From Clostridiaceae bacterium (GTDB lineage: Bacteria; Bacillota; Clostridia; Peptostreptococcales; Natronincolaceae): a DNA stretch of 64,000 bases. Of this stretch, positions 3,497-27,590 are shown one piece after another. A program made the translations under genes and the position numbers. Within the stretch, counting starts at the first letter, position 1; each line of letters starts with the position of its first letter. The stretch spans positions 1-64,000 of the forward strand of contig JAFIFG010000052.1 of assembly GCA_020832135.1 (NCBI GenBank), in the 5' to 3' direction. The notes under the pieces are model-generated. The model did not search any database. It saw only the letters and a program-made list of their open reading frames with translations, and had not been told where the DNA came from.

Positions 3497-3644
3497 TGGA
3501 GGATTCCATTTTATATATAGTATAAAGCTTAAAAATAAAGCGAATAATCCTACAATTGAATTGTATCAACTAGCATAACTATGCTATCTTTTTCATCTGG
3601 TACGTCATACCTTCATCCAAAATAGACTAACCGCCCCTACATTA

Positions 3645-3685
3645 TTAGACGATAAATCCTTTCAAACTGCTCCCTTATTATACCA
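3645..3685 (-). promoter_or_regulatory. Overlapping extended -10 and ECF-type promoter in R1
   Basis: On the minus strand TGGTATAAT is followed directly by GGAGC, then 17 bases, then CGTCTAA. The other copies have GGAAC in the -35 position, so this site has one substitution. It faces the gene at 3095. Confidence 0.55.
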
Positions 3686-3726
3686 TTAATTTACTATTTC
3701 TGTAGTATGTGGCAGTTAAAGGCCAA

Positions 3727-3754
3727 AAAGATAGATTGCTTTTTTCAGCAATCA
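3727..3754 (-). terminator. Terminator inside repeat R1
   Basis: Minus strand GATTGCT-GAAAAA-AGCAATC is followed by TATCTTTTT. It sits just upstream of the repeat's promoter and would isolate it from upstream transcription. Confidence 0.6.
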
Positions 3755-4032
3755 TTTTATCTTTATTCACGGGAATTCTCCTTCTATTTTTAAGGGGTAG
3801 GGGGTTACAGGAAGGGTGTTCTTTCTGACAATTACCCATCTGCATTCAGGCACACGTTTCTATATTTTTCCACATGTTTTTATAATATTTTATAATACCA
3901 ATTATTCACATATTATTTTTGCTTTCTATGATTTCATTCCTTAAAAATAGTATAAATCATCTTTTCGTCTTAAAAAGGTGGTGAGCAATATACCTTTTCA
4001 GCTTAAGCAGTATTATTTACAACAAAGTCTAA

Positions 4033-4080
4033 ATAAAAAACAGTAGCTTAATATAAACATAAATTTGTGTTAACTACTGT
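4033..4080 (-). terminator. Terminator of the desulfidase operon
   Basis: Minus strand ACAGTAG-TTAACAC ... CTACTGT is followed by TTTTTATTT, placed 31 bases beyond the stop of the gene at 4111. Confidence 0.75.
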
Positions 4081-4110
4081 CTTCTTATTATCTATCATTC
4101 TATTCTAAGG

Positions 4111-4602
4111 TTACAAAATTTTTCGTATATAGCTTTTAAAGGCATCTATAACTTCTTGACTTTGCTCCTCTATGTATTCTTCAGGAATATCAAAAATATT
4201 TAAATCAATGTTTTCTTCCTTTATTAATTTCATTAATTCTTCCATAAAAATTCCTTTTTCCCCTGAGGCTTCACAGGAAGGACTTCCTTGTATCCCTATT
4301 AACCCAAGAATTTCATAGTCATTAATTATGTATTCCTTTATTTGGTTAACAACTTGTATTGTCAATTGGCTACAAAGACTTCGATAGGTAGGAATATCAT
4401 ACTCTTCCTTTGTTTTAGGGGGGCGGTTTTCCCCTAGAAATGTAAATTCAGGACAAGGCAATTGAATGATAGAGATATTGTCTTCCAACAGTACCCTTAT
4501 AATATTGTTAAAAGCACCTTGCGCCCTTTCCCATTCTCTTATAACAGCATTTTGATTTAATATACAATGAGATATGTATACAATTTGTTTTTTTCTATGC
4601 AT
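4111..4602 (-). CDS. TudS-related putative desulfidase
   Basis: The product has 163 residues from the ATG at 4602, preferred over the upstream TTG because AAAGGGAAG lies 10 bases before it. The sequence resembles the DUF523/TudS group, which removes sulfur from thio-substituted pyrimidines with a [4Fe-4S] cluster held by three cysteines. Cysteines in S-H-C-I-L-N, L-P-C-P-E-F and G-S-P-S-C-E-A are at the expected places (about 13, 50 and 110 in this numbering). It overlaps the stop of the transporter gene at 4595 by eight bases, so the two are translationally coupled. Substrate is inferred from the family only. Confidence 0.7.
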   Translation of the reverse strand: MHRKKQIVYISHCILNQNAVIREWERAQGAFNNIIRVLLEDNISIIQLPCPEFTFLGENRPPKTKEEYDIPTYRSLCSQLTIQVVNQIKEYIINDYEILGLIGIQGSPSCEASGEKGIFMEELMKLIKEENIDLNIFDIPEEYIEEQSQEVIDAFKSYIRKIL

Positions 4603-5170
4603 TTTTAACAAACTTCCCTTTAATTAAATCTTGAGGAAGCTTTTGTATTAATATAGCTACCAATATACAACTAGCAATCTTATCTACAAAATTTCCTGTA
4701 ATCCTTGGTATAAATGCTGCAGTGAAAATTCTTTGTCCACTGGCTAACAGCCATGCAAATATAAGGTCTGTTCCACCTCCAGTTACACCACCATATACAA
4801 ATACAGCTATTGGTGTTCCTATTAAAGGAGCTACTATAGATAATATAAGTCCAGTAATTGCCGCTATCTTTAAATCAAATTTAAATCTTTTAGCAATAAA
4901 TCCTACAATTAATCCAATTACAATATTTACAATAGCGAATGGTATGTTCTTAGGGTTTGTAATCATTCCTTGTATAATATTAGTTAATCCCCCTGTCAAT
5001 GCACCTGCAAAAGGTCCTAGTACTGCTGCTACAAAGATAGTTCCTATAGTATCTAAGAATAACAGTGGAATTTGTAAAGTCTGCACAATAGTACCAAAAA
5101 CAATATTAATTACAATTCCTAGTGATGCCATAATCATGGCATTGGTAGATTTAAATGGTGAGTTTTTCAA
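4595..5170 (-). CDS. ECF-type transporter S component (substrate-binding membrane subunit)
   Basis: The 191-residue, six-helix membrane protein shows the pattern of S components of energy-coupling-factor transporters, including an early F-L-D-T-I-G-T-I-F stretch and a G-A-L-T-G-G loop (about residues 55-65). It needs the shared EcfA/A'/T module, which is not in this window. It starts with TTG at 5170 behind AGGGGGA. Pairing with the TudS-like desulfidase suggests import of a sulfur-substituted nucleobase or similar compound that the partner then desulfurates. The substrate is inference. A hairpin covers the ribosome-binding site. Confidence 0.75.
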   Translation of the reverse strand: MKNSPFKSTNAMIMASLGIVINIVFGTIVQTLQIPLLFLDTIGTIFVAAVLGPFAGALTGGLTNIIQGMITNPKNIPFAIVNIVIGLIVGFIAKRFKFDLKIAAITGLILSIVAPLIGTPIAVFVYGGVTGGGTDLIFAWLLASGQRIFTAAFIPRITGNFVDKIASCILVAILIQKLPQDLIKGKFVKNA

Positions 5171-5180
5171 TAAAATTCCC

Positions 5181-5217
5181 CCTAATAAAATAATATTTTC
5201 ACTTTAATTTTATTAGG
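5181..5217 (-). promoter_or_regulatory. Inverted repeat overlapping the start of the ribosome-binding site of the S-component gene
   Basis: Minus strand CCTAATAAAAT is followed by a 15-base loop and ATTTTATTAGG, an 11-bp perfect inverted repeat. Its 3' arm ends inside the AGGGGG ribosome-binding site of the gene starting at 5170. It could mask translation initiation or be an operator. No known riboswitch class is recognised. Confidence 0.5.
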
Positions 5218-5370
5218 TTTGTTAAAAACTGTACAATTGAAAGTTTCAATAATAATCATCATTCCTATAAAAATAATAGATTAACAGAAATTAAAACTTA
5301 CAAAGTAAAAATTAATTAGACATTTATTCATTAGGCTTTGTTAATGATAAATGTTGATATTTTACAATAT

Positions 5371-5415
5371 AAAAAAGAATGGCTATATTACTATATTTGA
5401 AGTATATAACCATTC
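5371..5415 (-). terminator. Terminator of the gene at 5470
   Basis: Minus strand GAATGG-TTATATAC ... ATATAGCCATTC is followed by TTTTTTATATTG, about 55 bases past the stop at 5470. Confidence 0.75.
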
Positions 5416-5469
5416 CTTAGATATGTTTTATGCCGCATAGAAAAAATACTATGCAACAATCATAATCAT

Positions 5470-5868
5470 TTAGTTAAGTACTTTTTTTGGAACATACCAC
5501 AGAAAATAGTTTTTTGAATATAACCTCGTTCCAATAGCAACAATCTCTTCATTCTTCTCAAATATAAACCCTGCACCTGCTTGCTCTTTAAAATGCCACC
5601 CTTTTTCTTTCATGAATTCTTTTACTAAATCATAACTAGAAGGAGAATTTCTTGTAGTTTTTGACACATATCTATATCCGCTGTTTGTTTCTGAAAACTG
5701 CTGATAATTACTGTTTGTTAACTCAAGTTTAATAATCGAAGTTAAAATTGGAATAGGGTTCCCCTCTTGTAGTAGGGCACTACCGAACCTGAATGTAATA
5801 AATCCAAATAACAGTATCAAAACCATTAGTATAATAAACAAAGTTTTTTTCAAAAAATCACTCCTCAA
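5470..5868 (-). CDS. Hypothetical small membrane-anchored protein
   Basis: The product has 132 residues with one N-terminal hydrophobic helix (about residues 8-28) and then a soluble domain of about 100 residues ending in F-L-W-Y-V-P-K-K. The topology suggests an outward-facing, membrane-anchored domain. I recognise no family. It has GAGGAGTGATTTTTTG-type ribosome-binding spacing and lies ~120 bases behind the ECF-type promoter in repeat copy R2. It has its own terminator, so it forms a single-gene unit. Confidence 0.7.
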   Translation of the reverse strand: MRSDFLKKTLFIILMVLILLFGFITFRFGSALLQEGNPIPILTSIIKLELTNSNYQQFSETNSGYRYVSKTTRNSPSSYDLVKEFMKEKGWHFKEQAGAGFIFEKNEEIVAIGTRLYSKNYFLWYVPKKVLN

Positions 5869-5990
5869 CTACAATTTTTTTAAGTGCTTTTCCGCCCATT
5901 AAGCCAACAAATTTTAAATTATGTTTTAAGTAGTCTGTATAGTTGCACATCATACCTTCATCCAAAATAAACTAAGCTACCCCTATCTTA

Positions 5991-6031
5991 TTAGACGATA
6001 AATACTGGCAAATCGTTCCCTCATTATACTA
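5991..6031 (-). promoter_or_regulatory. ECF-type promoter in R2
   Basis: Minus strand TAGTATAAT, then GGGAAC, 17 bases, CGTCTAATAAG. It points at the gene starting at 5868. Confidence 0.65.
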
Positions 6032-6070
6032 TTACCTTTCTGTTTCTGTAACATATTGCAGTTAAAGGAC

Positions 6071-6100
6071 AAAAAAATAGACTGCTTTTTTCAGCAATCC
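6071..6100 (-). terminator. Terminator inside repeat R2
   Basis: Minus strand GATTGCT-GAAAAA-AGCAGTC is followed by TATTTTTTT. It would end transcription from the lipoprotein gene at 6193. Confidence 0.75.
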
Positions 6101-6192
6101 TTTTATCTTTACTCACAGAAATTTTTGCTCTATTTCTAAGGGGTAGGGGGTTATGGGAAGGGTGTTCTTCTTGGTAATTACCCCATCTACAT

Positions 6193-6579
6193 TCAGGGAC
6201 ACGTTTCTATATTTTTCCACATTATTTTATGGTATTTTCCAGAACTGAATTCACCTTGAAAGATCTCTTTGTATACTTCTTCAGGTGTAACTTCCTTTTC
6301 AAATAGCTCCTTGCCATTAGGAGCATATAGTGCTATGATGATGCTTCCTTGCTCTAATTCATATTCTACAACAATCTGAGTGGCTGCAGCAAATTCCCAC
6401 TCCTGTGTTTTTTCTCCTGCAAATCTTCCTATAGATAATACTCGTTCTTGTGGATTGTTAGTATGCATATCTAAATACCTAGTTGTTTGATATCCTCCAA
6501 AAAAATTACATCCTGTAAAACTTAATATAGTCAGAAGTACTATTAAAGTTCCTAAAATACTTTTCATATTTCTCTTCAC
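6193..6579 (-). CDS. Small lipoprotein, apparent ancestor of relics in the repeat
   Basis: The 128-residue product has a lipoprotein signal peptide with lipobox L-S-F-T-G-C at about residue 24, then a soluble domain of about 100 residues rich in beta strands. No named family is recognised. The start could be GTG at 6579 or the ATG four codons later, which has the better spaced GAAGAG. Its last residues overlap repeat R2, and relics of the same C-terminus occur near 3880 and 16640. It lies behind a diverged ECF-type promoter at 6677. A role in envelope stress is only inferred from that promoter. Confidence 0.75.
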   Translation of the reverse strand: MKRNMKSILGTLIVLLTILSFTGCNFFGGYQTTRYLDMHTNNPQERVLSIGRFAGEKTQEWEFAAATQIVVEYELEQGSIIIALYAPNGKELFEKEVTPEEVYKEIFQGEFSSGKYHKIMWKNIETCP

Positions 6580-6676
6580 TTTCTATCTATCCTTTCTATT
6601 GCTTATTACCCTTGTTCTCTTAAGGTATGAACTTAGCCATACACATCTGTAGTATTAATTAACATAAGTCACATTA

Positions 6677-6720
6677 TTAGACGTTATTTATCTGTAGATT
6701 GTTGCCTTTTTATACTATAA
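6677..6720 (-). promoter_or_regulatory. ECF-type promoter in R3
   Basis: Minus strand GGCAAC, 17 bases, CGTCTAATAATG, preceded by TATAGTATAA. The -35 differs by one base from GGAAC. Confidence 0.5.
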
Positions 6721-6763
6721 TTTGCTTGTTAATAATGGTTTATATTGATCAAAAGATAAAAAA

Positions 6764-6795
6764 ATAGACTACTAACTTTTTGTTTCATAGTCTAA
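6764..6795 (-). terminator. Terminator in R3
   Basis: Minus strand TAGACTA, a loop of about 16 bases, then TAGTCTATTTTTTTATC. Confidence 0.55.
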
Positions 6796-6953
6796 CTGTT
6801 TTTACTCAATTATCTCTTTTAATATTTTCACTTACTGCTTTGTTAGCTGCTGTAAAGTTGAGGTATTTTTGATACCTACTGGCTTCATTATATCATCTAC
6901 TGGCATAATTTTACACATATATACAGTCTATTCCACCATTATATTTAGATAAT

Positions 6954-6976
6954 AAAAAAGATGAGCTAGTCATCTT
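6954..6976 (-). terminator. Terminator of the hypB-hypA operon
   Basis: Minus strand AAGATGA-CTAGC-TCATCTTTTTTATT, about 60 bases past the stop at 7038. It closes the four-gene operon. Confidence 0.8.
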
Positions 6977-7037
6977 CTTCACTTCTATCGACAGATAGCA
7001 CTATTCAATTAGTATTTATATAATTTCTACTCTAAGC

Positions 7038-7964
7038 CTACAAATTATTTGCTACCACACTTTTCTTATAATAATTTGTGTGGGTATAAATTTCTTCTTT
7101 TAATGGATTCTTTTTACTCTTAACCATTGTATAAGTCATAAAAACAAATACACCCATGTTAAATATAAAAGAAAACATGCTAATTCCCATTAATAAGCTT
7201 TCTTGGTATGTTGCTAAAACTTTAAAATATGAAGTACTTTGAAAATCAACAGACAAAGAAAACATAGCATAAATTGATAGTATTTGTGCTCTATGTTGTA
7301 ACCACACACCTCTTTTGAATACATATTCTGCAATTAAAGCTGCAAATAAAATACCAAATCCAGCGTACATTGATCTTGTAGAAATACAATTGTAAACATA
7401 AGCGAAATTCCATAAGGTGTAACCTATAATATACATCCATGTCATATCAGGCCATACCATATCTTTTGTTTTATCTTTTGATACACGTATGCCACCAAAT
7501 CCTGTTAATGTAACAATACATAGAATTCCTGCAATTCCATTTAAAATATTCCAAGCACCACCAACAATAAGAATACCACCTGGATCAACCGTTAATGTTT
7601 TATAGGTTGCAAATACTTCAAACTCTCTATATACTGCTTCTGCAATATTCAACGATAGAATTGCTACTGGAAATATGGCTGCAAATCTTTGCTCTCCAAG
7701 TTTGGTGAATCGAATTAACATAAAACCATAAACACCTATTAATGCAGATACGACTTTAACCCATCCAAACCATGTTTTCCCTGTCGGGGATCCTAAAATG
7801 CCCATAACCACACCGATTCCTAATATAACTGGAAGAACACAAAATACCAAAATTGATATCTTTTTTGATCTTCTTGTTATTTCATTAACAAACAATAGCA
7901 CACCAATAAATAAGATAAGTGCAATAAAACTTTCTAATGTTAGCCCCTCATATAAAAAACCCAT
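7038..7964 (-). CDS. DUF5692-type polytopic membrane protein
   Basis: The 308-residue product has about eight hydrophobic helices and small polar loops, with conserved-looking W-N-I-L-N-G-I-A-G and Y-T-L-W-N-F-A-Y segments. It resembles clostridial proteins annotated as DUF5692, whose function is unknown. It is the last gene of the hypB / Fe-S flavoprotein / hypA operon, about 140 bases after hypA. A nickel-related transport role is a tempting but unsupported idea. Confidence 0.65.
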   Translation of the reverse strand: MGFLYEGLTLESFIALILFIGVLLFVNEITRRSKKISILVFCVLPVILGIGVVMGILGSPTGKTWFGWVKVVSALIGVYGFMLIRFTKLGEQRFAAIFPVAILSLNIAEAVYREFEVFATYKTLTVDPGGILIVGGAWNILNGIAGILCIVTLTGFGGIRVSKDKTKDMVWPDMTWMYIIGYTLWNFAYVYNCISTRSMYAGFGILFAALIAEYVFKRGVWLQHRAQILSIYAMFSLSVDFQSTSYFKVLATYQESLLMGISMFSFIFNMGVFVFMTYTMVKSKKNPLKEEIYTHTNYYKKSVVANNL

Positions 7965-8101
7965 TTTAATCCCCCTTAAAATAATAATTATTTGATGACT
8001 AAAAGTTCTAGTTCTTCCCCTTCTTCCTGGGGGGAAGAACAGAACTCCATTATCTCTAAATTGCCTTACAAAGTAATTCCCAAACTACTTATTCTAATAT
8101 T

Positions 8102-8443
8102 TCAATAGGCAACAATCTCTTTAATATTAAATTCTTGTCCTGAAATCAAAGTAAAATCTTCACCATTACACTTTGGACATATTTTCCTGTGATCAACTAT
8201 GTTGTAAACTTCATTGCATAATTTACATTTACCATTGGCTGGTAGGGAAATAATCTCAAGTTTTGTGTTCTCATAGGCTGTTTCACTTACAGCTGCAGGA
8301 TAACAATTTTCAATAAATCTCGGAATTGCTTGAGATAATTGTCCAATTTCTAAAACTATTCTATCTACTTTTGCAAGATTGTTTTCTTCTACAAAACTAT
8401 CTACAACTTTTATAACTTCGTATACAATTCCCAGTTCATGCAT
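8102..8443 (-). CDS. hypA: HypA nickel metallochaperone
   Basis: The product has 113 residues when started at the ATG at 8443, where GAGGGA lies seven bases upstream and the chain begins M-H-E-L-G. HypA needs this N-terminal M-H-E because His2 binds nickel, so the start five codons upstream is rejected. The zinc site is seen as C-K-L-C and C-P-K-C about 20 residues apart. HypA passes Ni to [NiFe] hydrogenase or other nickel enzymes together with HypB. No hydrogenase, hypC, D, E or F gene is in the window. Confidence 0.93.
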   Translation of the reverse strand: MHELGIVYEVIKVVDSFVEENNLAKVDRIVLEIGQLSQAIPRFIENCYPAAVSETAYENTKLEIISLPANGKCKLCNEVYNIVDHRKICPKCNGEDFTLISGQEFNIKEIVAY

Positions 8444-8488
8444 GACATAATCCCTCATTTTCTAATGTTGGTTTCTTTTTCAATAAAA

Positions 8489-11263: not shown

Positions 11264-11266
11264 TTT

Positions 11267-11929: not shown

Positions 11930-12385
11930 CCTTACCCTCCTGCTCCTCATTTTAAGTTGATTATAGCAAGATTCAAAATACCCAACAACCAAGGTTTATT
12001 TTAAAATTAAAGAGAGTTTTTACTTTACATTTGTGTTGACAGTTTGTTTGACTTAATGAATACCTTAATTGTTTGATAATTTATAAAGTTTTTTAGGACA
12101 ATTGTAAACAAAACCCTAAAGTAAAATATTTTTTTAAACGGTAACAGTTAGAGTTGATGGCCTTATACACTAAAATAATGCAGAAAAAGCCTATATGTTG
12201 TAGAAACATCGTTTGTATGTTAAAATTTTGATAATATATTAAAACTTAAGTTTGAATAAACCTTTAAAAAAGTAAAACTTCATTTAAGCTGTGTTTTGAC
12301 ACATTTTGAATGTTAGCTTAAGTTGATCCAAGAGCTGTTAGTCTTAGATAAGAAATTCTAAAAACATTACTTTAGGTGGTTGATT
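11930..12385. other. Divergent intergenic region
   Basis: About 450 bases lie between hypB (minus) and the transposase-like gene (plus). No gene is seen. It contains several AT-rich promoter-like boxes, including TTGACA near 12035, and short arms TTAAGCT / AGCTTAA near 12285 and 12315. I could not assign a promoter to either gene with confidence. Confidence 0.4.
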
Positions 12386-13372
12386 ATGGATCGAGATTTA
12401 AAATTTACTATAATTTGTGAAGGGCAAAAATTTGGTGTCAGCTCAACCTGTAAAAAATATAACATCTCAAGGACCCTTTATTACCGCTGGTTAAAACGAT
12501 ATAAAACCCTTGGCATTAAAGGTTTAGATGATGTTACAAAGAATTTTACTCCTGTTAATAAAACTAAACCTGAAGTTGTCTCTACTATTTTAAACTTAAT
12601 AAAAAAACATCCTAATTATGGACCGCGAGAAATTAAATACCTTTTAGAAGAGATTGGCTATAACATTAGCGAATCCGCCGTTTATAATGTTATGAAGAGA
12701 AATAATCTAACAACAAGAGCCAAGAGAATAAAGTTTGCAAACAAAAGAGAAAAACAAATAACCAGGAATTATCCTGATTTTGATAATTTAAAAAATGGTG
12801 AATGTTGGTTATGCTGGACAACATCCTATGGTGACTTTGAAAATATTGGAACAATCTATCAATACACTATTTTTGACTACAAAAGTAAAATTACTTGTAC
12901 AAGATTATATAATCAGTTGTCTATGAAGAATTTTGAGGATATTTTAACAGCTGTAGCAATTCCCGTTGCACAAAACTTAAATTTCGAGGCAAAACATTTG
13001 TGCTTTTTTGAGGATTATAAAATCATAGAAAAACAGAAGGATTCTTTTTTATCACATATATATACCATCTTTCAAAATACTGGATTTGATATCAATATAC
13101 ATTTATTAAAAGAAAACGATGATTTAATTAAAACTGAAGAATCGAGAAAAGATTATACCCATCACTGTTTATCATTTCTAATGCCTTTTATTCATAAAGG
13201 AGCATCGTTTAACGAACTTAAAATTCATTTGCAAAAATATATTAGAGATTACAACATTAACCATAAGTCCTCTTATAATGATGGATTTTATTCACCGGTT
13301 GAATACCATGTTAAGTCAACAAATACTGAAATGATTTTGCCCCTTTGGGCTTATATAGAAAGACGATATTAA
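12386..13372 (+). CDS. Transposase-derived protein with a degraded DDE site (IS481-like)
   Basis: The product has 328 residues from the ATG at 12386, with AGGTGG seven bases upstream. It has two helix-turn-helix segments (about 15-40 and 60-105) and an integrase-like fold (about 138-325) ending in the typical Y-N-x-x-H ... G-F-Y-S-P-V-E-Y. The key motifs are altered: the usual W-Q-x-D-T reads W-L-C-W-T-T, so the first Asp is Trp, and the usual D-N-G-S-E-F reads F-F-E-D-Y-K. The frame is nevertheless intact and no terminal repeats or flanking IS ends are seen. It lies 12 bases before the oxidoreductase gene. A domesticated DNA-binding protein is more likely than an active transposase. Confidence 0.75.
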   Translation: MDRDLKFTIICEGQKFGVSSTCKKYNISRTLYYRWLKRYKTLGIKGLDDVTKNFTPVNKTKPEVVSTILNLIKKHPNYGPREIKYLLEEIGYNISESAVYNVMKRNNLTTRAKRIKFANKREKQITRNYPDFDNLKNGECWLCWTTSYGDFENIGTIYQYTIFDYKSKITCTRLYNQLSMKNFEDILTAVAIPVAQNLNFEAKHLCFFEDYKIIEKQKDSFLSHIYTIFQNTGFDINIHLLKENDDLIKTEESRKDYTHHCLSFLMPFIHKGASFNELKIHLQKYIRDYNINHKSSYNDGFYSPVEYHVKSTNTEMILPLWAYIERRY

Positions 13373-13384
13373 GAGGTGGTTAAG

Positions 13385-14575: not shown

Positions 14576-14856
14576 AGATAGTTATGCAGGTAGTACTATG
14601 AAATTACAATTGTGTGAAAATGCACTAAATCTATTAATTACAAGGGGTAGGGGGTATTTCCCAAGAATTCCACTCTTGTCATATCCACCTTCGACTTTGT
14701 TTAAAAACCCCACCTAATTTAACCCTCAACTTATTATTTACTTCATGATTTTGGGAATACATTTTATGAAAAAGACTATCTGACTTGGCAACTAGATTAT
14801 CGAACTTAGCTTAATTTATACTATTTTTATCTGTCATTAAATGTCTAGTAATTTTA
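14576..14856. other. Intergenic region with a short relic of the repeat
   Basis: No gene is visible. Positions 14640-14665 hold ACAAGGGGTAGGGGGTA, a short relic of the interspersed repeat; the rest of that repeat is missing here. Confidence 0.55.
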
Positions 14857-16559: not shown

Positions 16560-16775
16560 TTTTTTCTGTTTTTCAAGGGGTAGGAGGTTACGGGAAGGGT
16601 GTTCTTTCTGACAATTCCCCCATCTACATTCAGGGACACGTTCCTATATTTTTCCACATAATTTCATGGTATTTTCTACAAAATTTCTAAATTTATTATC
16701 TGTAAATTTTATAATTTCATTCTCTATAAGATAGTATAAATTAGCTTTGTCTCAATAAATAGATGATGTTACAAT
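16560..16775 (-). repeat. Right half of the interspersed repeat
   Basis: This partial copy lies between bioB and the lipoprotein gene at 16791. Minus strand shows the relic K-Y-H-E-I-M-W-K-N-I-G-T-C-P stop, nearly identical to the C-terminus of the intact lipoprotein at 6193, then the CCCCTACCCCTTG block. The terminator and promoter part is absent, as expected where no minus-strand gene follows. Confidence 0.8.
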
Positions 16776-16790
16776 ATATACTAATAACTC

Positions 16791-17342
16791 CTATACATCA
16801 AAATCAAAACCTGTTATCTTCCAACTTCCTTCAAAATTTTCAAAGTATAGGTTTAAAAAAGTAGGAGGAGATACTGGTTCTCCATTTTGATATTCAAAAA
16901 ACTCTCTAATATGAATTACATATGCTTCATTTTCTTCTAAATATCCATACCCTTGAATAATCATGTCTTTATAAATGACATCGCTACTACCATCATAAAG
17001 CATATATTCTATTTCAATTCCATTAGATTCATATGTACCATAAATCTTATCATTGTCTTCTATTATTAAAACATTATCTGCTACAACTTCCTTGAGTTTT
17101 TGAACATCTCCTTGAGTTTGTCCTCTAACAAACTCAATAGATATATTACTAAAAGCAGGGAATAGATTTTCTTTTTCTTGCATCCATGTAACATAGTTGT
17201 TCTTTTCCTCCAACTCAGTTTCTAACATTTTAATTCTTTCTTCCAGTTCGTTTATTTTATTATTATTTTGGACATCTGTATTAATTGCACAACCTGATAT
17301 AAAAAATATACAAATTAAGACAAGCAATAATGCCTTTTTCAT
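16791..17342 (-). CDS. Lipoprotein with coiled coil and NTF2-like domain
   Basis: The 183-residue product has lipobox F-I-S-G-C at about residue 18. Residues 28-52 (N-E-L-E-E-R-I-K-M-L-E-T-E-L-E-E-K) form a heptad-patterned coiled coil, and the remainder (about 68-183) looks like an NTF2/SnoaL-type cone fold ending in G-S-W-K-I-T-G-F-D-F. It is probably attached to the outer face of the membrane. It starts ~125 bases behind the ECF-type promoter of repeat R4 with AAGGAAAGGAG before the ATG. Function unknown. Confidence 0.75.
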   Translation of the reverse strand: MKKALLLVLICIFFISGCAINTDVQNNNKINELEERIKMLETELEEKNNYVTWMQEKENLFPAFSNISIEFVRGQTQGDVQKLKEVVADNVLIIEDNDKIYGTYESNGIEIEYMLYDGSSDVIYKDMIIQGYGYLEENEAYVIHIREFFEYQNGEPVSPPTFLNLYFENFEGSWKITGFDFDV

Positions 17343-17464
17343 TAATAAAACTCCTTTCCTTCTTTTAGTAGTATTGAATTGTATAAACTAACATAGCTAT
17401 GTCGCCTTTTTCATCTGGTACGTCGTACCTTCATCCAAAATAGACTAAGCCACTCCTAACCTTA

Positions 17465-17505
17465 TTAGACGATAAATACTTGCAAATCGTTCCCTTATTA
17501 TACCA
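17465..17505 (-). promoter_or_regulatory. ECF-type promoter in R4, consensus copy
   Basis: Minus strand TGGTATAATAAG, then GGAAC, 17 bases, CGTCTAATAAGG. This copy matches the family consensus at every motif position. It faces the lipoprotein gene at 17342. Confidence 0.7.
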
Positions 17506-17542
17506 TTAACTTTCTGTTTCTGTAGCATGTTGCAACTAAAGA

Positions 17543-17573
17543 ACAAAAAAACAGACTGCTTTTTTCAGCAATT
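17543..17573 (-). terminator. Terminator inside repeat R4
   Basis: Minus strand AATTGCT-GAAAAA-AGCAGTC is followed by TGTTTTTTTG. It would end transcription of the gene at 17738. Confidence 0.65.
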
Positions 17574-17737
17574 CTTTTATCTTTATTCACAGAAATTTTT
17601 TCTATATTTCTCCACATTATTTCATGGTGTTTTCTGTAAAATTTCTAAATTTATTATCTGTAGTTTTTATTATAATCTCATTCCTTTAAAATAATATAGA
17701 TTATCCTTGTCGTTATAAAAAGAAATTACAAAGTATT

Positions 17738-18124: not shown

Positions 18125-18248
18125 TAGGTACCACCCCCTATTCATTTAGCATATACTTTCCGTTCACATTTTATATCTGTGACAACTTTAAAAGATAATG
18201 AATTTCCACTATAGATATAGGCTATGCTCTTTTGTCTTGACTCCTGTT

Positions 18249-18638: not shown

Positions 18639-18722
18639 ATTTACTGTCCTCCTTCATCTAACATAAATTCATGTTATTACTTATAAAAAAGATAATATAT
18701 AGATTAGATATTTATCAGTTTC

Positions 18723-19178
18723 CTAATATAATGGCTTCACAAACTCTGTTAAATATACATTTTTGCTTATTTCAATATTTTTTGTTTTGCGATATCCATT
18801 TTTTAAATATAAATTAACAGCAGGTAGATTTGCCCTCCCACTACATACCGTTATCTTATATATATTACTTTCAAGTTTTTCTATATAGTTAATCAACTTT
18901 TCTGCAATACCCATTCTAAAGAAGTTAGGATGCACTGCAACTCTATGTATATCCAAAACATTTTTAATGACCTCAAAAGAAATAATTCCTGTTAAAACAT
19001 CATTTATATGATATCCATAAAAAATTTCTTCACATTGCTTTAAGCTCTTTATTGTATCTTTTAAAGGAGGTATTTCTTGAAAGCCTATAATCTCAGCTTC
19101 AATTTTGTATGAAGCTATTTGTAGTTCTAATACAGATTTAGATATTACATCATCTTTTAAATTAAGCTTTTTAATCAT
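18723..19178 (-). CDS. GNAT family N-acetyltransferase
   Basis: The product has 151 residues from the ATG at 19178, which has GAGGAGAAGG upstream and gives the usual GNAT start (M-I-K-K-L-N-L-K-D). Motif A is V-A-V-H-P-N-F-F-R-M-G-I-A-E-K-L and the later N-L-P-A-V-N-L-Y-L-K-N-G-Y is motif B. It acetylates an unknown amine with acetyl-CoA. A GTG eleven codons further upstream is an alternative start. It lies behind the ECF-type promoter of repeat R5. Confidence 0.85.
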   Translation of the reverse strand: MIKKLNLKDDVISKSVLELQIASYKIEAEIIGFQEIPPLKDTIKSLKQCEEIFYGYHINDVLTGIISFEVIKNVLDIHRVAVHPNFFRMGIAEKLINYIEKLESNIYKITVCSGRANLPAVNLYLKNGYRKTKNIEISKNVYLTEFVKPLY

Positions 19179-19212
19179 ACCATCCTTCTCCTCTTGGGTC
19201 ACATTTTTCACC

Positions 19213-19425
19213 TTTAATTCATACCTTCATCCTAAATAAACTTAACCGCACCTACCTTGTTAGACGATAAGTACTTACAAATCCTTCCCTTATTATACCA
19301 TTAACTTTCTATTTCTGTAGCAATCTTTTTATCTTTATTCACAGAAGCCTATCTTCTATTTCCAGTGGATAGAGAGTTGCGGTAAAGGTGTTCTTCCTGG
19401 CATTAGACCATCTGCCTATAGTTTT
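19213..19425 (-). repeat. Interspersed repeat, copy R5
   Basis: This shortened copy keeps the leader and promoter (19260-19300) and a diverged AGTGGATAGAGAGTTGCGG block, but has lost the terminator stem. It lies directly upstream of the GNAT gene. Confidence 0.7.
19260..19300 (-). promoter_or_regulatory. ECF-type promoter in R5
   Basis: Minus strand TGGTATAATAAGG, GGAAG, 17 bases, CGTCTAACAAGG. One base differs from GGAAC. Confidence 0.55.
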
Positions 19426-21615: not shown

Positions 21616-21639
21616 TAAATAACAAGAAAACATAAAGTG

Positions 21640-21670
21640 CCCCAATCTTAGGAGTTTCCTAAAATTGGGG
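21640..21670 (+). terminator. Terminator after the LysM protein gene
   Basis: CCCCAATCTTAGGA-GTT-TCCTAAAATTGGGG is a strong hairpin 25 bases past the stop at 21615. The T-run after it is poor (TATATGTATT), so it may act as a stability hairpin. Confidence 0.6.
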
Positions 21671-21743
21671 TATATGTATTCCCCCCAGCCAACGTAATCT
21701 ACCTCATTTTGAACTAACAATTACTTTTTCATTATATTGATCT

Positions 21744-21865
21744 TACTTCTGCTTTTTCCCATATCCTAGTAAGCGGTAATCAACATGAATTATAAGTAAG
21801 CCTATCCAGGGATAGTTGTCCTTAGGATTGTTTTTCAGAAAATCAATAATTCCAATATATCTAAA
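21744..21865 (-). pseudogene. Remnant of a GNAT acetyltransferase gene
   Basis: The minus strand reads G-I-I-D-F-L-K-N-N-P then Y-P-W-I-G-L-L-I-I-H and D-Y-R-L-L-G-Y-G-K-K followed by a stop, the central beta4 / motif A region of a GNAT fold. There is no N-terminal half, and the upstream end runs into the interspersed repeat. It is not the same as the intact GNAT at 18723. Confidence 0.6.
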
Positions 21866-21869
21866 AACA

Positions 21870-21995
21870 AAAAAATAGATTGATTTTTTGACCAATCATT
21901 TTAGCCTTTATTTCCAAGGGGTAGGGAGTTGCTGCAAAGTATCTAAACTTATTAGCTATAGTCTCTATAATTTTACTCTTTTAAGATAGCATATC
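21870..21995 (-). repeat. Partial copy of the interspersed repeat
   Basis: It keeps AATAGATTGATTTTTTGACCAATCATTTT-like terminator sequence and CAAGGGGTAGGGAGTT, then the AT-rich end found after the gene at 17738. The promoter half is missing. It ends at the stop codon of the gene at 22000. Confidence 0.65.
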
Positions 21996-21999
21996 TTTG

Positions 22000-23019
22000 T
22001 TAATTTTCTTCTATTCCCGTGATTAAATCTTTAAAATACAATCCAATTTGAAAAATCTGTTCATCATTCAGTTTAATTACTGCATTACTATATTCAGCAA
22101 ACTCCAATATCCCTAATTCAGAATAATTTGGAGCAGGTTCAAATTTCTTATCTATAATTTCATTTGTAATAAGATTTATTTGAAAATACACATGAGGACC
22201 GTCAACGGCTCCCGTAACAGAGCCAGTAGCTTTAATCATGGAGAAGGTCAAAACATGCCCATCTGAACTTATTGAAACACCTCCCTCATTTTTTGTACCA
22301 AATTCCTCAAAAACTTTTAATCCAGCAATATACATTGACCTATCCTCGTAATTGTAGGATAAAATATCTGCAGCTTTACCATCAACAATTTCATAGAAAC
22401 GTTTATCTGAAATATGCTTTTCTGAAGTAGTCTCCAAAGCTTCAAGTTCTTCCCTAATTAAAGTCAATTTTTCTATTACTTGGTCAAGCTTATATTTTTG
22501 AGGTTCAAAGTTTATATCTAATTTATCAGTCCTTATACTCCAGTGATGACCCATAGCATCTCCTATAAACAAACTATAGCCTTCTTCTAATTGATTAGAA
22601 AAATTTATTAATTGAGCTTTACTCATCAATGGTAGTTTAGATTTAAAACGATTTATAATTGCTTCATATTTTAAATCAAATTCTATTAAGAAGGCTACAT
22701 ACTCATTATATAAGGGATGGATAGGATTTACTTTATCAGTAGTTTTCATAATTACTGATTTCATAGGTGTAGCTAATTCCCAGTATAGATCAGATTCTTC
22801 TTCTGAAATTGGAAAATCTATATCATTACTTGCAGATAAGTTTGTTACAAACTGTGTCAAATTTCTCCATTCTTTTGCCCTCTGGCTAAACTCATTCATG
22901 ATAATTACCTTTTCAAGCTCAACTTTCTCTGATTGTTCATCAAAATAATTTTTTACAAGAAATATGTTTAACACCAGCGACAAAATAAGTAGAGTAGTTA
23001 TGATTTTAATTCTTTCCAT
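22000..23019 (-). CDS. Hypothetical membrane-anchored extracytoplasmic protein
   Basis: The 339-residue product has an N-terminal signal anchor (about residues 5-23), then a helical region rich in charged residues (about 30-200, possibly coiled coil at 180-205), then a beta-rich C-terminal domain of about 120 residues with G-S-V-T-G-A-V-D-G-P-H-V-Y-F-Q. GAGGGGGAATC lies before the ATG. I recognise no family. It is part of the minus-strand accessory series and may have been duplicated from elsewhere. Confidence 0.65.
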   Translation of the reverse strand: MERIKIITTLLILSLVLNIFLVKNYFDEQSEKVELEKVIIMNEFSQRAKEWRNLTQFVTNLSASNDIDFPISEEESDLYWELATPMKSVIMKTTDKVNPIHPLYNEYVAFLIEFDLKYEAIINRFKSKLPLMSKAQLINFSNQLEEGYSLFIGDAMGHHWSIRTDKLDINFEPQKYKLDQVIEKLTLIREELEALETTSEKHISDKRFYEIVDGKAADILSYNYEDRSMYIAGLKVFEEFGTKNEGGVSISSDGHVLTFSMIKATGSVTGAVDGPHVYFQINLITNEIIDKKFEPAPNYSELGILEFAEYSNAVIKLNDEQIFQIGLYFKDLITGIEEN

Positions 23020-23119
23020 TTTGATTCCCCCTCAAAATCCTGCACCTTTATGTCTCAAAATATTATAAGTTTTAAGTAACACGCAGTTCTTCCTACATTA
23101 GTAAGACTTACTTTAAATT

Positions 23120-23500
23120 TTATTCTTCAATCAATTCATACCTTATGAATGAGTCATTATATTCTGCATAGATTATTTCCTCTGATTGTTTATTACCATA
23201 TATACCGGTATTAATAGGCAGTGTATTTGAAACAAAATACGCTCTTCCTTTTACCATAGGCTCTGTTTGAGATACTCTATCCTCTACTTTTCCTAAGTAA
23301 ACAAACTCTTCAGGTAAAGTCTCTTTTATTCTTCCGGTATCTCCGTAGATATAGTTTTCTTTAGAAATCATAGGCTTATAATCCCATTGCTGCTCGGTGT
23401 CATCTTTATCGTCTACTTGATTCGTGCATCCTGCAATTAATATAGATAAAATGATTAACCCAACGATAAAGCAAAGCGATGACTTTCTAAACTTCCTCAT
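23120..23500 (-). CDS. Small lipoprotein
   Basis: The product has 126 residues from the ATG at 23500 with GGGAGGGGATTG upstream. The signal peptide ends in lipobox L-I-A-G-C at about residue 25. The rest is acidic and short. The longer frame reads into a DUF2500 relic upstream, so it is not used. Function unknown; probably membrane-attached on the outside of the cell. Confidence 0.7.
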   Translation of the reverse strand: MRKFRKSSLCFIVGLIILSILIAGCTNQVDDKDDTEQQWDYKPMISKENYIYGDTGRIKETLPEEFVYLGKVEDRVSQTEPMVKGRAYFVSNTLPINTGIYGNKQSEEIIYAEYNDSFIRYELIEE

Positions 23501-23514
23501 ACCAATCCCCTCCC

Positions 23515-23672
23515 TATTGATACAATTTTTATGAAATTCCATTCTATCTCCGTTTTCAACTTCAAATGCAACATAATATCTAGTAGTAGTATGGTGATGT
23601 CCATTATGATTACTTGTTCTTCTTGAAGTATGATTGTGTTTTGCAACAATTTTGGCTGCTACACTTAATTTA
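23515..23672 (-). pseudogene. Remnant of a DUF2500-type gene
   Basis: The minus strand reads V-A-A-K-I-V-A-K-H-N-H then Y-Y-V-A-F-E-V-E-N-G-D-R-M-E-F-H, the central part of DUF2500 proteins. The N-terminal membrane helix and the C-terminal part are missing, and the frame runs into the start region of the lipoprotein at 23500. Likely a decayed copy. A GGAGGAG site lies upstream, perhaps the old ribosome-binding site. Confidence 0.6.
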
Positions 23673-23697
23673 ACTCCTCCGATATAATTTAGTTAAT

Positions 23698-24123
23698 TCA
23701 TTTTGTGTGTTTAAGCGATATGACAGAAGTTATGAACATTCCTAAAGATATAAATGCCATTATGATCGAAGCATTCAAAAAACTTCCAACAAAAAAATTA
23801 ATTCCATACCATTGACCTAAAAGCAAAATTGCAAAAGGTAGGCTCCAATCAGCGAGAGCCCCTGTAGCACCAATATACCCCGTTAATATAGCAAGAAAGA
23901 GATTTATCATCCAGAACACAGAAAAATATTTCATAACCCTACGATTCTTGCTTTTGATGCTAATTGTTAAAATGAGCATCAAAATACCTATGTATGCAAA
24001 TGTGACAGTTAAATTTTTTACAGTTGCAGGGTTTCCCATTAAGAACTCTTGAAAATTCAAAACCATGCCGCCAATAACAGTCATAATAGATAAAACAATT
24101 ATTACTGCTGCTTTATTTTGCAT
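23698..24123 (-). CDS. Small four-helix membrane protein
   Basis: The 141-residue product is almost wholly hydrophobic, with four helices (about 6-25, 38-56, 65-85 and 110-135) and short loops. RBS GAGGGGG precedes the ATG. It lies ~70 bases behind the ECF-type promoter of repeat R6, so it is expected to be under the same control as the other repeat-linked genes. No family recognised. Confidence 0.7.
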   Translation of the reverse strand: MQNKAAVIIVLSIMTVIGGMVLNFQEFLMGNPATVKNLTVTFAYIGILMLILTISIKSKNRRVMKYFSVFWMINLFLAILTGYIGATGALADWSLPFAILLLGQWYGINFFVGSFLNASIIMAFISLGMFITSVISLKHTK

Positions 24124-24184
24124 TTTTCAACCCCCTCTTTAAGATTTATCTATAATCTAGCTTAAACTTCATTTTAGTTATAGC

Positions 24185-24260
24185 AATAATATTAGACGAT
24201 AAATACTTGGAATTTGTTCCCTTATTATACCATTATTCATCCATTTCTGTAGCTTGAATT
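24185..24260 (-). repeat. Interspersed repeat, copy R6 (promoter core only)
   Basis: Only the promoter core of the repeat remains, from TATTAGACGATAAATACTTGG to the CATTTCTGTAGC block on the plus strand. It is upstream of the membrane protein gene at 23698. Confidence 0.7.
24192..24232 (-). promoter_or_regulatory. ECF-type promoter in R6
   Basis: Minus strand TGGTATAATAAG, GGAAC, 17 bases, CGTCTAATATT. The motif matches the consensus although most of the rest of the repeat is gone. Confidence 0.65.
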
Positions 24261-24299
24261 AATATGAAGGTCATATCATGGTTACATAAATAATGCATC

Positions 24300-24335
24300 A
24301 AAAAAACGAAAAGGAAGATAAATAACATATCCTCC
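24300..24335 (-). terminator. Terminator of the DnaJ-domain gene
   Basis: Minus strand GGAGGATA-TGTTATT-TATCTTCC, followed by TTTTCGTTTTTTTG. Confidence 0.65.
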
Positions 24336-24352
24336 CTTCTCCTAATAACTAT

Positions 24353-25132
24353 TTATAGGTTTTTATACTGTTGTATATTATCATCACTCAGAAACTCATA
24401 TGCAGCAGTAATCTCTTGAAAAATCTTTGTTGCATCCGGAGCTTTGCTCAAATCTGGATGATACTCCTTTGCCTTTTTTCTGTATGCACTTTTTATTTGA
24501 GGTTTATCTGCATCATATGATACTCCTATAACATCACAACTTCTCTCATACTTATTCTTAAACTCAACAGTAGGGTTTACAAAACCATGACTGTAGCTAC
24601 CCTGGCCTCCATAACCACCATAGTTACCTTGACCTCTTTGGGAATTCTGTTGATCCCATTGTTGCTTAAAACGTTCTTCCCATTTTCTTCGTTGCTCATA
24701 ATACTGGCGTTGCTGTTCTCTTATTCTATCCTCTTCTGCTTTTTTATAAGCCGCTTTGTATTCATTAAAAGCTTTGTATTGATAATTTACCTCATCCATA
24801 AGATAATTGGCAGTATTAAATAGAAACTCCGTTGTAATATATTTTATATACTTCAGATAAGATGCAAATTTACCCCCGAATATTAAGAACATCCATAAAA
24901 ACAATATAGTAGATAACCCAGCAGGATGCATCAATACTCTAAAACCTAAATGAACAAATATCAGAAAAAATAAACAACCACCCATACTTGCTAAAGCTAA
25001 ACAGCCTTTGAAAAAACTTCCTACAAATACCACCGTATTCTCGATTAGCTGTATCAATCCCTCCATTATTATACACATTATTTTAGTCATTCCATATAAA
25101 GCTTTACCTAGCATCTTCTTGATTAATCTCAT
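24353..25132 (-). CDS. Membrane protein with C-terminal DnaJ domain
   Basis: The 259-residue product has two N-terminal membrane helices (about 42-65 and 70-90), a charged, Q/R-rich linker (115-180, rich in Gly and Tyr at 165-180), and a J domain at the C-terminus with the catalytic E-Y-H-P-D-L motif near residue 230. It would recruit DnaK to the membrane. Co-directional with the zinc-ribbon protein gene at 25184, 51 bases upstream, so probably one operon. Confidence 0.8.
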
Positions 25133-25183
25133 CTCCAGTTACCCTCTCCTTATTGCCCTAAACCTTGCTAAGCACTAGTCTGG

Positions 25184-25585
25184 TTAAGTCTTTCTAGTAA
25201 ACCTATCTTTACACTGGGGGCATGTAATCACTATTTTCCCTTTGCCCTTTGGTACCCGCAGCATAGTCTTGCATGTCGTACATTTATAATATTTATGGGT
25301 CTTTAAACCTTTAATGTGGCTTTGGATATTTTTGAACTTAGCATAAATGGGACTTACAAATATGGCAAACCTATAATTCTCCATACTACGCTTTTGCAGA
25401 TCCTTTGAAAGCATTCTATAAACAGCCACAAATAAAGGAATATAACTTATGGTCATTAATATTGAGACTCCAGCAATCCGGCTTATCAATGTTAAAACTA
25501 TTGATAATACAAGTAAAAAAATAGATAGCTGATCCCCTCCATATCTTCCAACCATAAATCTTCTTAACCAATCCATCATCATCAC
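25184..25585 (-). CDS. Membrane protein with C-terminal zinc ribbon
   Basis: The 133-residue product has two hydrophobic helices (about 20-52) and a C-terminal zinc ribbon with C-T-T-C and C-P-Q-C pairs. Downstream gene encodes a membrane J-protein, so the two could act together in a membrane-linked folding complex. The family name is unknown to me. Start is uncertain among four Met codons in a row. Confidence 0.7.
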   Translation of the reverse strand: MMMMDWLRRFMVGRYGGDQLSIFLLVLSIVLTLISRIAGVSILMTISYIPLFVAVYRMLSKDLQKRSMENYRFAIFVSPIYAKFKNIQSHIKGLKTHKYYKCTTCKTMLRVPKGKGKIVITCPQCKDRFTRKT

Positions 25586-25987
25586 TCCTAGTAAATACTA
25601 ACTATTATTTCTTATATCCTATACCTTTTTGTAGAATGATTATGGCATCAGATAATTAGACTTCCCTATATAATTATTATATAATTTAAAATACTATATA
25701 TCAAATATCTTTGTAAAATGATATGCTAATACCCAGTATTTTCAATAGCCTTTCAAACTTTTTCTTCGTTACTAAGCCCTTGGGGTCCCAGTGCTTATAC
25801 ATTGAAAATCATAAAAATGGGATGCATATATGAAGAACAGCAAGGGAACATTTGTTACGGATTTAAAAAACTACTAGAGCCAGTAATAAACAGGTAATCA
25901 GAATGATAGGAGTTAGAAGAGGTGTATGCGATAAAATATAGTAATTTTAGGTAAGAATCAAAACCTAATCGTGACATAGTATTAAAA
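25586..25987. other. Intergenic region without a recognised gene
   Basis: About 400 AT-rich bases. No repeat copy, RNA or ORF with support is seen. Possible minus-strand promoter for the gene at 25585 lies within 25590-25700, but it is not clear. Confidence 0.4.
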
Positions 25988-26030
25988 GGAGAAGAAGTTA
26001 AACAACCAACTTCTTCTCCTATATTTTTTC
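25988..26030. terminator. Bidirectional terminator after deoD
   Basis: GGAGAAGAAGTT-AAACAACC-AACTTCTTCTCC, a perfect 12-bp stem, with T-rich tails on both strands. It touches the stop codon of deoD. Confidence 0.9.
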
Positions 26031-26743
26031 TACTCTGCCATTTCTAAGGCGATCTTCATCATATTTGTAAATGCATTTTGTCGTTCTTCAGAAGTTGTTG
26101 CTTCTTGAGTTGCTAGGTTGTCAGACACAGTAAGTAAACATGCTGCATTTTTTCCAAGTACCTTTGCATTATGGAAAAGAGCAAAAGCTTCCATTTCTAC
26201 AGCTACACAGCCATACTTATCATAAATTTCCTTATATTCTTCGAAGTTTTCTCTATAAAACACATCAGAGGAATGAATTCTTTCTATATGCATCTGAATC
26301 CCTAGCTCATTTGCATATTTCATAAGACTCTGGTTTAATTCTGGAGTGCCTTCAATGACATCACTTTCATAACCACCTTGTACTTTAGCATAGCTAGATT
26401 CACTCCAGACATCCTTCGCCAAGATTACATCATACAGTTTTACATTTGGAGTATATCCCCCGCAAGATCCAATTCGAATAATATTTTCTACGTGGTAAAA
26501 CTTATAAAGCTCATAGGAATAAATTCCTATGCTAGGCATTCCCATACCGCTTGCCATAACGGAAATTCTTCTTCCCTTATATGTTCCGGTATATCCTAAA
26601 ACATTTCGAACACTGTTAAACTGTTTTACATCTGTTAAAAATGTATCTGCTATAAACTTTGCTCGCAGGGGATCCCCCGGCATTAAAACAGTTTTTGCAA
26701 TTTCATCCTTATTTTTTGATTCAATATGTGGTGTTGGTATCAT
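26030..26743 (-). CDS. deoD: Purine nucleoside phosphorylase, DeoD type
   Basis: The product has 237 residues from the ATG at 26743 (an ATG one codon earlier is possible), chosen because AAAGGAGG lies seven bases upstream and M-I-P-T-P-H-I is the normal DeoD N-terminus. L-M-P-G-D-P-L-R-A-K-F and G-M-G-M-P-S-I-G-I-Y-S are phosphate- and base-binding segments, V-E-M-E-A is the ribose-binding motif, and S-D-N-L is in the purine site. It cleaves purine nucleosides with phosphate. The inverted repeat upstream may control it. Confidence 0.95.
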   Translation of the reverse strand: MIPTPHIESKNKDEIAKTVLMPGDPLRAKFIADTFLTDVKQFNSVRNVLGYTGTYKGRRISVMASGMGMPSIGIYSYELYKFYHVENIIRIGSCGGYTPNVKLYDVILAKDVWSESSYAKVQGGYESDVIEGTPELNQSLMKYANELGIQMHIERIHSSDVFYRENFEEYKEIYDKYGCVAVEMEAFALFHNAKVLGKNAACLLTVSDNLATQEATTSEERQNAFTNMMKIALEMAE

Positions 26744-26766
26744 CATGTTTCCTCCTTTACGATTTA

Positions 26767-26810
26767 ATACTCTAACCCTACCATTCAAACTAACTCTAGG
26801 GTTAGAGTAT
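26767..26810 (-). promoter_or_regulatory. Long inverted repeat upstream of deoD
   Basis: ATACTCTAACCCTA, 16 bases, TAGGGTTAGAGTAT: two perfect 14-base arms ending about 15 bases before the deoD ribosome-binding site. It could be an operator for a nucleoside-responsive repressor or a leader hairpin. No T-run follows, so it is not a terminator. Confidence 0.65.
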
Positions 26811-27012
26811 TTAGTGATAGTGCTTAAATTATTGTTGTAACTAGAATTGTATCTATCTTTGTCTATTTTTTCAAGGGTTATGTATTTAATAATTGAAAAT
26901 TTGTTCTTTCTCAATATTATATATAAAGCTTGTTACATCTTTTTCATCAAGTATGTATTTAAAAGATAGTACTACTTCACTTAATAATTAGACTGTATGA
27001 GGTGTAATTCCT

Positions 27013-27399
27013 TTATTTAAGTAACTCATTATCGTACAGCTTGAAAACTGCTCCTTTTTTAATCAAATCAGCAGTCATATTACTATTTTCAAAAATTAAT
27101 TTATCACCATCCACTGTAAATATATATGATTCGTTTTCTTCAACATAAAGTATTAATGTCTTACCCTCAATTGAATAAGTTCCCACAGGCAAATATGAAG
27201 AAGCTAGGCTACGGTTAAATATAAATTTCTTATCTTCTTTTAACGAAATCCATGAGTCATTCTCTATTTCTGTGCCTTGCATAACATATCTTCCTAATTT
27301 CAATTCCACTGTTTTGTTCTGCTCTGAACACCCTGTAACTTGAACCACCATTATGCCAATAATCATTAAGGATAATACAAGCATTCTTTTTTTCTTCAT
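27013..27399 (-). CDS. Small lipoprotein
   Basis: The product has 128 residues from the ATG at 27399, because GGAGG lies seven bases upstream and the chain then starts M-K-K-K-R with a lipoprotein signal peptide ending V-Q-V-T-G-C. The remaining ~105 residues look like a small beta-barrel (K-L-G-R-Y-V-M-Q-G-T-E ... L-I-L-Y-V-E-E-N). No family I recognise. The gene starts ~85 bases behind the ECF-type promoter of repeat R7. Confidence 0.75.
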   Translation of the reverse strand: MKKKRMLVLSLMIIGIMVVQVTGCSEQNKTVELKLGRYVMQGTEIENDSWISLKEDKKFIFNRSLASSYLPVGTYSIEGKTLILYVEENESYIFTVDGDKLIFENSNMTADLIKKGAVFKLYDNELLK

Positions 27400-27435
27400 T
27401 TTACATTCCTCCATTGTAGAAATACTCCCTATTGT

Positions 27436-27590
27436 AAATCATATCCTGATTCAAAATAGACTAAGCCCACCATACATTATTAGACGATAAATACTTGCAA
27501 ACGGTTCCCTTATTATAACATTATTTACCTTTATTAGTAACATCCCCCTTTGTACTATTATTTAAGAGGTTGCTGCAAAACAGATTATAC
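27436..27590 (-). repeat. Interspersed repeat, copy R7
   Basis: It holds the leader (AAAATAGACTAAGCCC on the plus strand), promoter core, and a short TTTAAGAGGTTGCTGCAAA piece similar to the partial copy near 21930. The terminator is missing. It is upstream of the lipoprotein gene at 27399. Confidence 0.7.
27480..27520 (-). promoter_or_regulatory. ECF-type promoter in R7
   Basis: Minus strand TGTTATAATAAG, GGAAC, 17 bases, CGTCTAATAATG. Consensus copy of the ECF-type motif. Confidence 0.65.

Follow-up and report, generated by a model that had tools for sequence, protein, structure and literature searches.

How can one stretch of non-coding DNA come to stand ahead of a series of unrelated genes? 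The question is raised by the first 64,000 nucleotides of contig JAFIFG010000052.1 from a Clostridiaceae bacterium of the family Natronincolaceae (the whole of this stretch is called the window below), where an interspersed repeat lies in the gaps of a series of small minus-strand genes. A first-pass annotation, made from the sequence alone, had taken the repeat for an expression cassette of envelope genes. Here we describe a different and, in our judgment, probable origin: each repeat would be the left-end remnant of a genomic island that a large serine recombinase (LSR) integrated at an attachment site (attB) in an L,D-transpeptidase gene, and this end would carry a terminator and a tandem promoter for sigmaA and an extracytoplasmic function (ECF) sigma factor. 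Genes landing beside such a repeat may join the cell-envelope stress response.

A direct-repeat search recovers the copies at the places reported in the window. We also built a sequence-only profile of the promoter unit (127 positions) from 13 units, namely the seven of the window, two on contig C53 and one on C36 elsewhere in the host genome (a 4.0-Mb draft), two in genome G012, and one in G015; these 13 are matched by construction. All seven window copies were found on the minus strand, in agreement with the common orientation reported by the first-pass annotation, which had also proposed a profile search of related genomes; G012 and G015, the carriers outside the host, belong to two other genera. 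The window units occupy positions 3604..3727, 5949..6073, 6636..6760 (the most diverged), 17422..17547, 19218..19322, 24154..24264 (where mostly the promoter alone remains), and 27438..27554. When 297 genomes of the order were searched with stricter filters, the units scored 54.9 to 109 bits and the next match 21.8 bits; a 43-base core gave three matches at no more than three mismatches against none expected. A tree of the 13 units has a single well-supported fork, the rest being unresolved. A known structured RNA was rejected as the identity of the repeat: in Rfam the window has no match at gathering scores, and 14 loci have none over the repeat at E values up to 1.

The most conserved feature of the units points to their regulator. 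The motif GGAAC-N17-CGTCTAA, said earlier to be kept in all seven copies, is exact in four of them (cores 5991-6019, 17465-17493, 24192-24220, and 27480-27508); CGTCTAA is intact throughout, and the remaining cores have a single change in the first half (GGAGC at 3645-3673, GCAAC at 6677-6705, and GGAAG at 19260-19288). Six of the ten host units have the exact motif; among the other four, C53_1915 reads CGTCTAT and three carry a single change within GGAAC. According to excerpts of one study (PMC3397946), GGAACTT is the -35 element of E. coli sigmaE, CGTC at -13 to -10 is the -10 motif of a Thermoanaerobacter ECF sigma factor (T. tengcongensis RpoE1), and recognition of the -10 element involves a DXXR motif that reads -12G. 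Judged by sequence, therefore, the motif is the -35/-10 pair of an ECF promoter, and the expected transcript start is some 10 nt past CGTC and not, as first proposed, at CGTCTAA.

Motif, ortholog, and attachment-site searches were made in 20 genomes of the family, including the host. GGAAC-N16/17-CGTCTAA occurs 91 times in this set against 14 times for the reversed motif, and 17 times against none in the host genome alone, where the 17 sites comprise six repeat units and 11 others. All but one of these 11 sit 52-296 nt ahead of a gene start; the other, on C6, is within a long frame without a gene start at such a distance. Not all sites are promoters, as one that is nearly identical in G001, G005, G012, and G015 falls within a long frame in each of them. 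By reading of their sequences, the ten non-repeat targets appear to be mostly lipoproteins, secreted and membrane proteins, an ABC transporter, and the sigma factor itself, a set that would resemble envelope-stress regulons. Motif-pattern scans of other collections returned no viral contigs and one Pasteurellaceae contig, taken as chance; these scans cannot show absence, because the collections may omit records close to the window.

Among 22 host loci with a Sigma70_r2 domain (region 2), only one, on C42, has GGAAC-N16-CGTCTAATAA upstream. This gene encodes a 198-residue ECF sigma factor carrying DFLR and is followed by a gene for an anti-sigma-like zf-HC2/DUF4349 protein. Orthologs are present in 19 of the 20 family genomes, every one with GGAAC-N16/17-CGTC upstream; in 462 control stretches the strict pattern was found in none and a looser pattern in 20. 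D-x-x-R, searched with one regular expression, is present in 17 of the 19 ortholog loci. The C42 protein is thus likely the sigma factor that reads the repeat promoters. In G015 the ortholog (C1:1567612-1568198; L103, L105) is divided between two frames, and the sole promoter unit of that genome has an altered -35. The window itself has a second ECF-type sigma gene (48231-48782), whose upstream region yielded no GGAAC-CGTC autopromoter.

The ECF promoter lies downstream of, and in tandem with, a sigmaA-like extended -10 element, TGGTATAAT, and it may be asked whether the latter alone works, the ECF resemblance being inherited and idle. TATAA is invariant in all 13 aligned units, as this explanation would have it, and two of the three units in G012 and G015 have an altered ECF -35, TATAAT being intact there. 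Conservation in five diverged units favours the tandem promoter in that the ECF -10 keeps 34 of 35 alignment cells and TGGTATAAT 41 of 45, compared with 133 of 215 in the upstream part and 113 of 225 in the leader. The ECF -35 (21 of 25) is barely better conserved than the spacer (68 of 85), and because 5 of 125 circular shifts equal the contrast between motif and rest, it is only suggestive; these two points and the altered -35 elements of G012 and G015 speak against the ECF half of our proposal. Against a lone sigmaA promoter, the -35 that sigmaA would use is a poor one (in one copy GTTACA, at a distance of 18 nt), CGTCTAA is conserved in all window copies, and the exact ECF motif of six host units is common to the promoter of the sigma gene itself. 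We therefore regard a sigmaA promoter on its own as improbable.

The origin of the repeat is indicated by the GGGG-rich block of its fuller copies, which the first-pass annotation had correctly noticed without recognizing its role. Host contig C53 has this block joined to the 5' half of an L,D-transpeptidase (YkuD) gene, and C13 as well as G012 and G015 show the identical fusion. In 16 of 20 genomes the best transpeptidase match of the family-wide search is continuous across codon 139; in the host, G010, and G002 it is interrupted at this codon, and in G018 it is absent. An LSR frame adjoins the 3' half on host contig C10, on C7 of G010, and in G002; the C10 and G010 frames encode a 540-residue protein with Resolvase, Recombinase, and zinc-ribbon domains, and the G002 frame is 46% identical to the C10 protein over 522 residues. 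When the arm on the left of the C10 core is set against the arm on the right of the C13 core, the two match in inverted orientation at 18 of 22 positions, a level reached by none of 60,000 random 22-mers (maximum 16) and none of 4,000 random pairs with free shift (maximum 17). The GGGG-rich block is, on this evidence, an arm of the predicted attachment site of the LSR. The C10 recombinase has 783 matches in phage records, all below 60% identity (the best 37.5% among the matches listed), and therefore no close phage source.

The same arm recurs in the window. The P' arm of C13 matches the blocks at 3836 and 6182 at 20 positions of 22 and that at 16619 at 19, and the C53 blocks at 21, 20, and 18; at other window sites, on both strands, the best match is 16 of 22, one of these being the repeat block at 19408. 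Elsewhere the arm matches a block in G001 at 19 positions, two in G015 at 17 each, and one in G003 at 17. A block profile, whose model included blocks of all five matching genomes except G003, finds eight places in the host, five in G015, two in G001, and one each in G012 and G003; the four blocks of the window are oriented alike, as are the five of G015. The transpeptidase 5' half is duplicated round the insertions in G010 (90% identity over 469 columns) and G015 (98.6% over 640), as if the elements carried it to restore the gene, and G012 retains two LSR fragments beside transpeptidase sequence.

The layout of the units is compact. The minus-strand att blocks of the window lie at 3786..3866, 6132..6213, and 19358..19414, the last of which matches the P' arm at 16 of 22 and so equals the best non-repeat site, and at 16569..16650, where no promoter follows; the block has been lost from the unit at 17422..17547. 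From arm to ECF -35 the distances are 162, 162, 119, 162, and 162 nt, and 163 nt in G015. The earlier claim of a terminator in the fuller copies holds at 3734..3753, between arm and promoter, and at 6079..6100, both on the minus strand; the terminator scan found none in the copies at 17374, 19213, or 27436, and that at 24309-24339, near the 24185 copy, looks unrelated. An upstream block common to many copies, P1, lies on the minus strand at 3840..3991, 16624..16774, and 17592..17735. Of the relics listed earlier, that at 16560 copies the upstream block well, that at 21870 is a partial att block with a terminator-like remnant (21868..21937, minus strand), and that at 14640, sharing about 16 C-rich bases, is doubtful. 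By eye, several copies also share CTGAATGTA with the transpeptidase target beside the core; a comparison of this half in fixed register fails, seven of eight blocks agreeing at 0-5 of 15 positions and the C53 fusion alone reaching 13.

What stands behind the units was read at first as a set of envelope-type genes. Their products comprise lipoprotein-like and small membrane proteins, a GNAT protein, and, on C53 and C36, a CPBP-type and a rhomboid protein, respectively; in the window, minus-strand examples are lipoprotein-like genes at 16791..17342 and 27013..27414, a GNAT acetyltransferase gene at 18723..19211, and a membrane-protein gene at 23698..24123. By a crude hydropathy test, membrane and lipoprotein features are not enriched (five of seven window targets, 31 of 61 other window open reading frames (ORFs), p 0.43). 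The supposed lipoprotein gene tail within the repeat is repeat sequence into which ORF 6193-6579 runs, the att block at 6132..6213 overlapping its end, and it occurs without that gene in other copies and genera. The original model of a cassette for envelope genes with transcripts from CGTCTAA does account for a unit ahead of each listed gene in the same orientation; with CGTC read as an ECF -10 element, the block as an att arm, and no enrichment for envelope proteins, we hold it very improbable. Its idea that copies of a single regulatory unit now stand ahead of different genes is supported, the downstream proteins being no detectable paralogs (lowest mutual blastp E = 0.019).

Relatives of these genes were sought in other genomes. 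The product of 27013..27414 has a 35% identical relative in G012, also behind a unit, and that of 23698..24123 has 60% identical relatives in G007 and G012, one G012 unit standing one gene upstream of the latter; in G015 the unit is ahead of a relative of a C53 gene. No unit lies upstream of the rhomboid relative in G014, and neither repeat nor motif upstream of the relatives of 23698..24123 in G007 and G004, synteny being too weak in either case to call an empty site.

Several facts tell against an origin at LSR integration sites. The arms pair at only 15 and 13 of 22 positions in G010 and at 14 in G002, values to be read against 4,000 random pairs of which 13 reach at least 15 and 39 reach 14, and an apparently unrelated G001 site also matches the P' arm at 17 of 22. 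A tblastn search with the C10 protein found no LSR gene in the window, which is why we speak of its array as remnants, and C10, C13, C53, C36, and C28 are separate contigs, not joined. Only five of the ten host units have a profile-detected att block upstream; conversely, blocks at 16569, at C53 6645, on C13, and in G001 and G003 have no promoter. P1, finally, shows no significant similarity to the transpeptidase coding region in shuffled local alignments and hidden Markov model searches, by which its identity as a decayed transpeptidase gene was rejected; it has one match upstream of the transpeptidase gene in G001 (E 6e-5).

Much of this would suit the main rival, a spread of the unit by segmental duplication, unequal recombination, or gene conversion, in which the recombinase had no part in copying and the att block is present only because an old island end fell in the duplicated piece; the ECF promoter would stay as described. 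The units lie clustered, one pair (3674 and C53_460) has 97% identity, the window lacks an LSR, half of the units lack a block, and P1 is common to many copies and by the tests made is not target-gene sequence. Duplication fits less well with downstream genes that are not detectable paralogs, with a block whose junction with the target gene does not vary in position across three genera, and with an arm-to-promoter spacing of 162-163 nt in two genera. We consider it doubtful.

The favoured scheme of LSR integration would then run as follows. The LSR would insert an island into the transpeptidase gene, itself the gene of a cell-wall enzyme, and at the left end of the island there would be, in order of transcription, an attL-type site with the P' arm last, then an intrinsic terminator by which the preceding gene would be insulated, and then the tandem promoter, with the sigmaA-like TGGTATAAT first and GGAAC-N17-CGTC after it. 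Serial integration or accretion at a single polar site may have built the tandem remains, and this route would account for units that cluster in a common orientation with unrelated genes between them. SigmaA would give basal expression of the genes behind the end, and the C42 sigma factor would induce them when the zf-HC2 anti-sigma factor releases it under envelope stress; ageing copies would decay until mostly the promoter remains. The promoter match, the autopromoter of the sigma gene, the att arm, and the LSR beside the split target can be read from the sequence; we infer transcription from the units, accretion and its order of events, the envelope-stress signal, and any present mobility of the islands. 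A variant that is possible, and that we offer tentatively, is gene capture by a serine recombinase in the manner of integrons, each capture at the transpeptidase site leaving an att end, a terminator, and the ECF promoter, so that captured genes come immediately under the envelope-stress sigma factor. In integrons, too, small unrelated cassette genes are lined up in a single orientation, with recombination sites separating them; here, in contrast, the recombinase is of the serine and not the tyrosine type, and the promoter is within the repeat.

The neighbourhoods of the target gene hold further features. In G010 two genes, which we take to be a QueT-like gene and a gene for a 166-residue protein, precede one transpeptidase 5' half, and their 94% and 75% identical relatives precede the window block 3991-3786. 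A gene pair, nucleotidyltransferase/HEPN-like as read from its sequence, follows the transpeptidase-att junction in host C13 (L208 511-1145) and G012 (L081 5480-6149). Another short repeat, with GTAGGGGCGACC and GGTCGCCCCTAC parts, lies in L081 of G012 at about 12600-12900 and in L082, there upstream of both transpeptidase copies. Inside the repeat region of the window, a plus-strand ORF (12380-13372) has helix-turn-helix domains and is transposase-like by reading.

Mobile promoters and promoter propagation, said to have been described by Matus-Garcia in 2012 and van Passel in 2014, reportedly consist of one promoter sequence recurring before unrelated genes of a genome, and a similar promoter sequence indeed precedes unrelated genes within the host genome. 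The present promoter differs in being of ECF type, in following a terminator in the fuller copies, and in its fixed spacing to an LSR att arm. Parts of the scheme have precedents in other systems, as judged from extracts of the papers concerned. The tandem ssrA islands of Dehalococcoides likewise combine a serine recombinase some 540 residues long with a single target gene and with direct repeats that mark multiple tandem islands, and their accretion is discussed; their target is the gene for transfer-messenger RNA instead of an L,D-transpeptidase, and the extract mentions no stress-sigma promoter at the end (PMC3146451). Staphylococcal and enterococcal cassette chromosomes share with our elements LSRs, a single chromosomal target gene, imperfect inverted-repeat att sites, and varied cargo, but target rlmH and use two recombinase genes (ccrAB), with no ECF promoter mentioned in the portion available (PMC6222049). 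The regulons of E. coli sigmaE and T. tengcongensis RpoE1 have in common with ours a GGAAC-type -35 (sigmaE), the CGTC -10, DXXR, and a downstream anti-sigma gene, whereas here part of the regulon would consist of copied promoter units (PMC3397946). The HrpL regulon of Pseudomonas syringae is also of ECF type, and its membership shifts as genes are gained in association with mobile elements and as promoters erode; the accessible part of its description contains no copied promoter unit at an integration site (PMC3879358). Within a partial coverage of the literature, no paper was found linking ECF sigma factors with interspersed repeats or with attL promoters of genomic islands; titles and abstract openings on ECF regulons and transposable elements describe no such unit, nor do titles among the matches listed for serine-recombinase tandem islands, cassette arrays, and transpeptidase sites.

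How acquired genes gain useful control is an open question, and the unit described here bears on it in a tractable form, being compact (arm to promoter 162-163 nt in five of six measured units) and having both its candidate sigma factor and its candidate recombinase identified. The proposed origin also supplies an LSR for which an attB has been deduced within a conserved gene. If it is true, the end left by integration brings its own stress-sigma promoter and insulating terminator, and therefore the acquisition of a gene and its wiring into a regulon would take place in one step.

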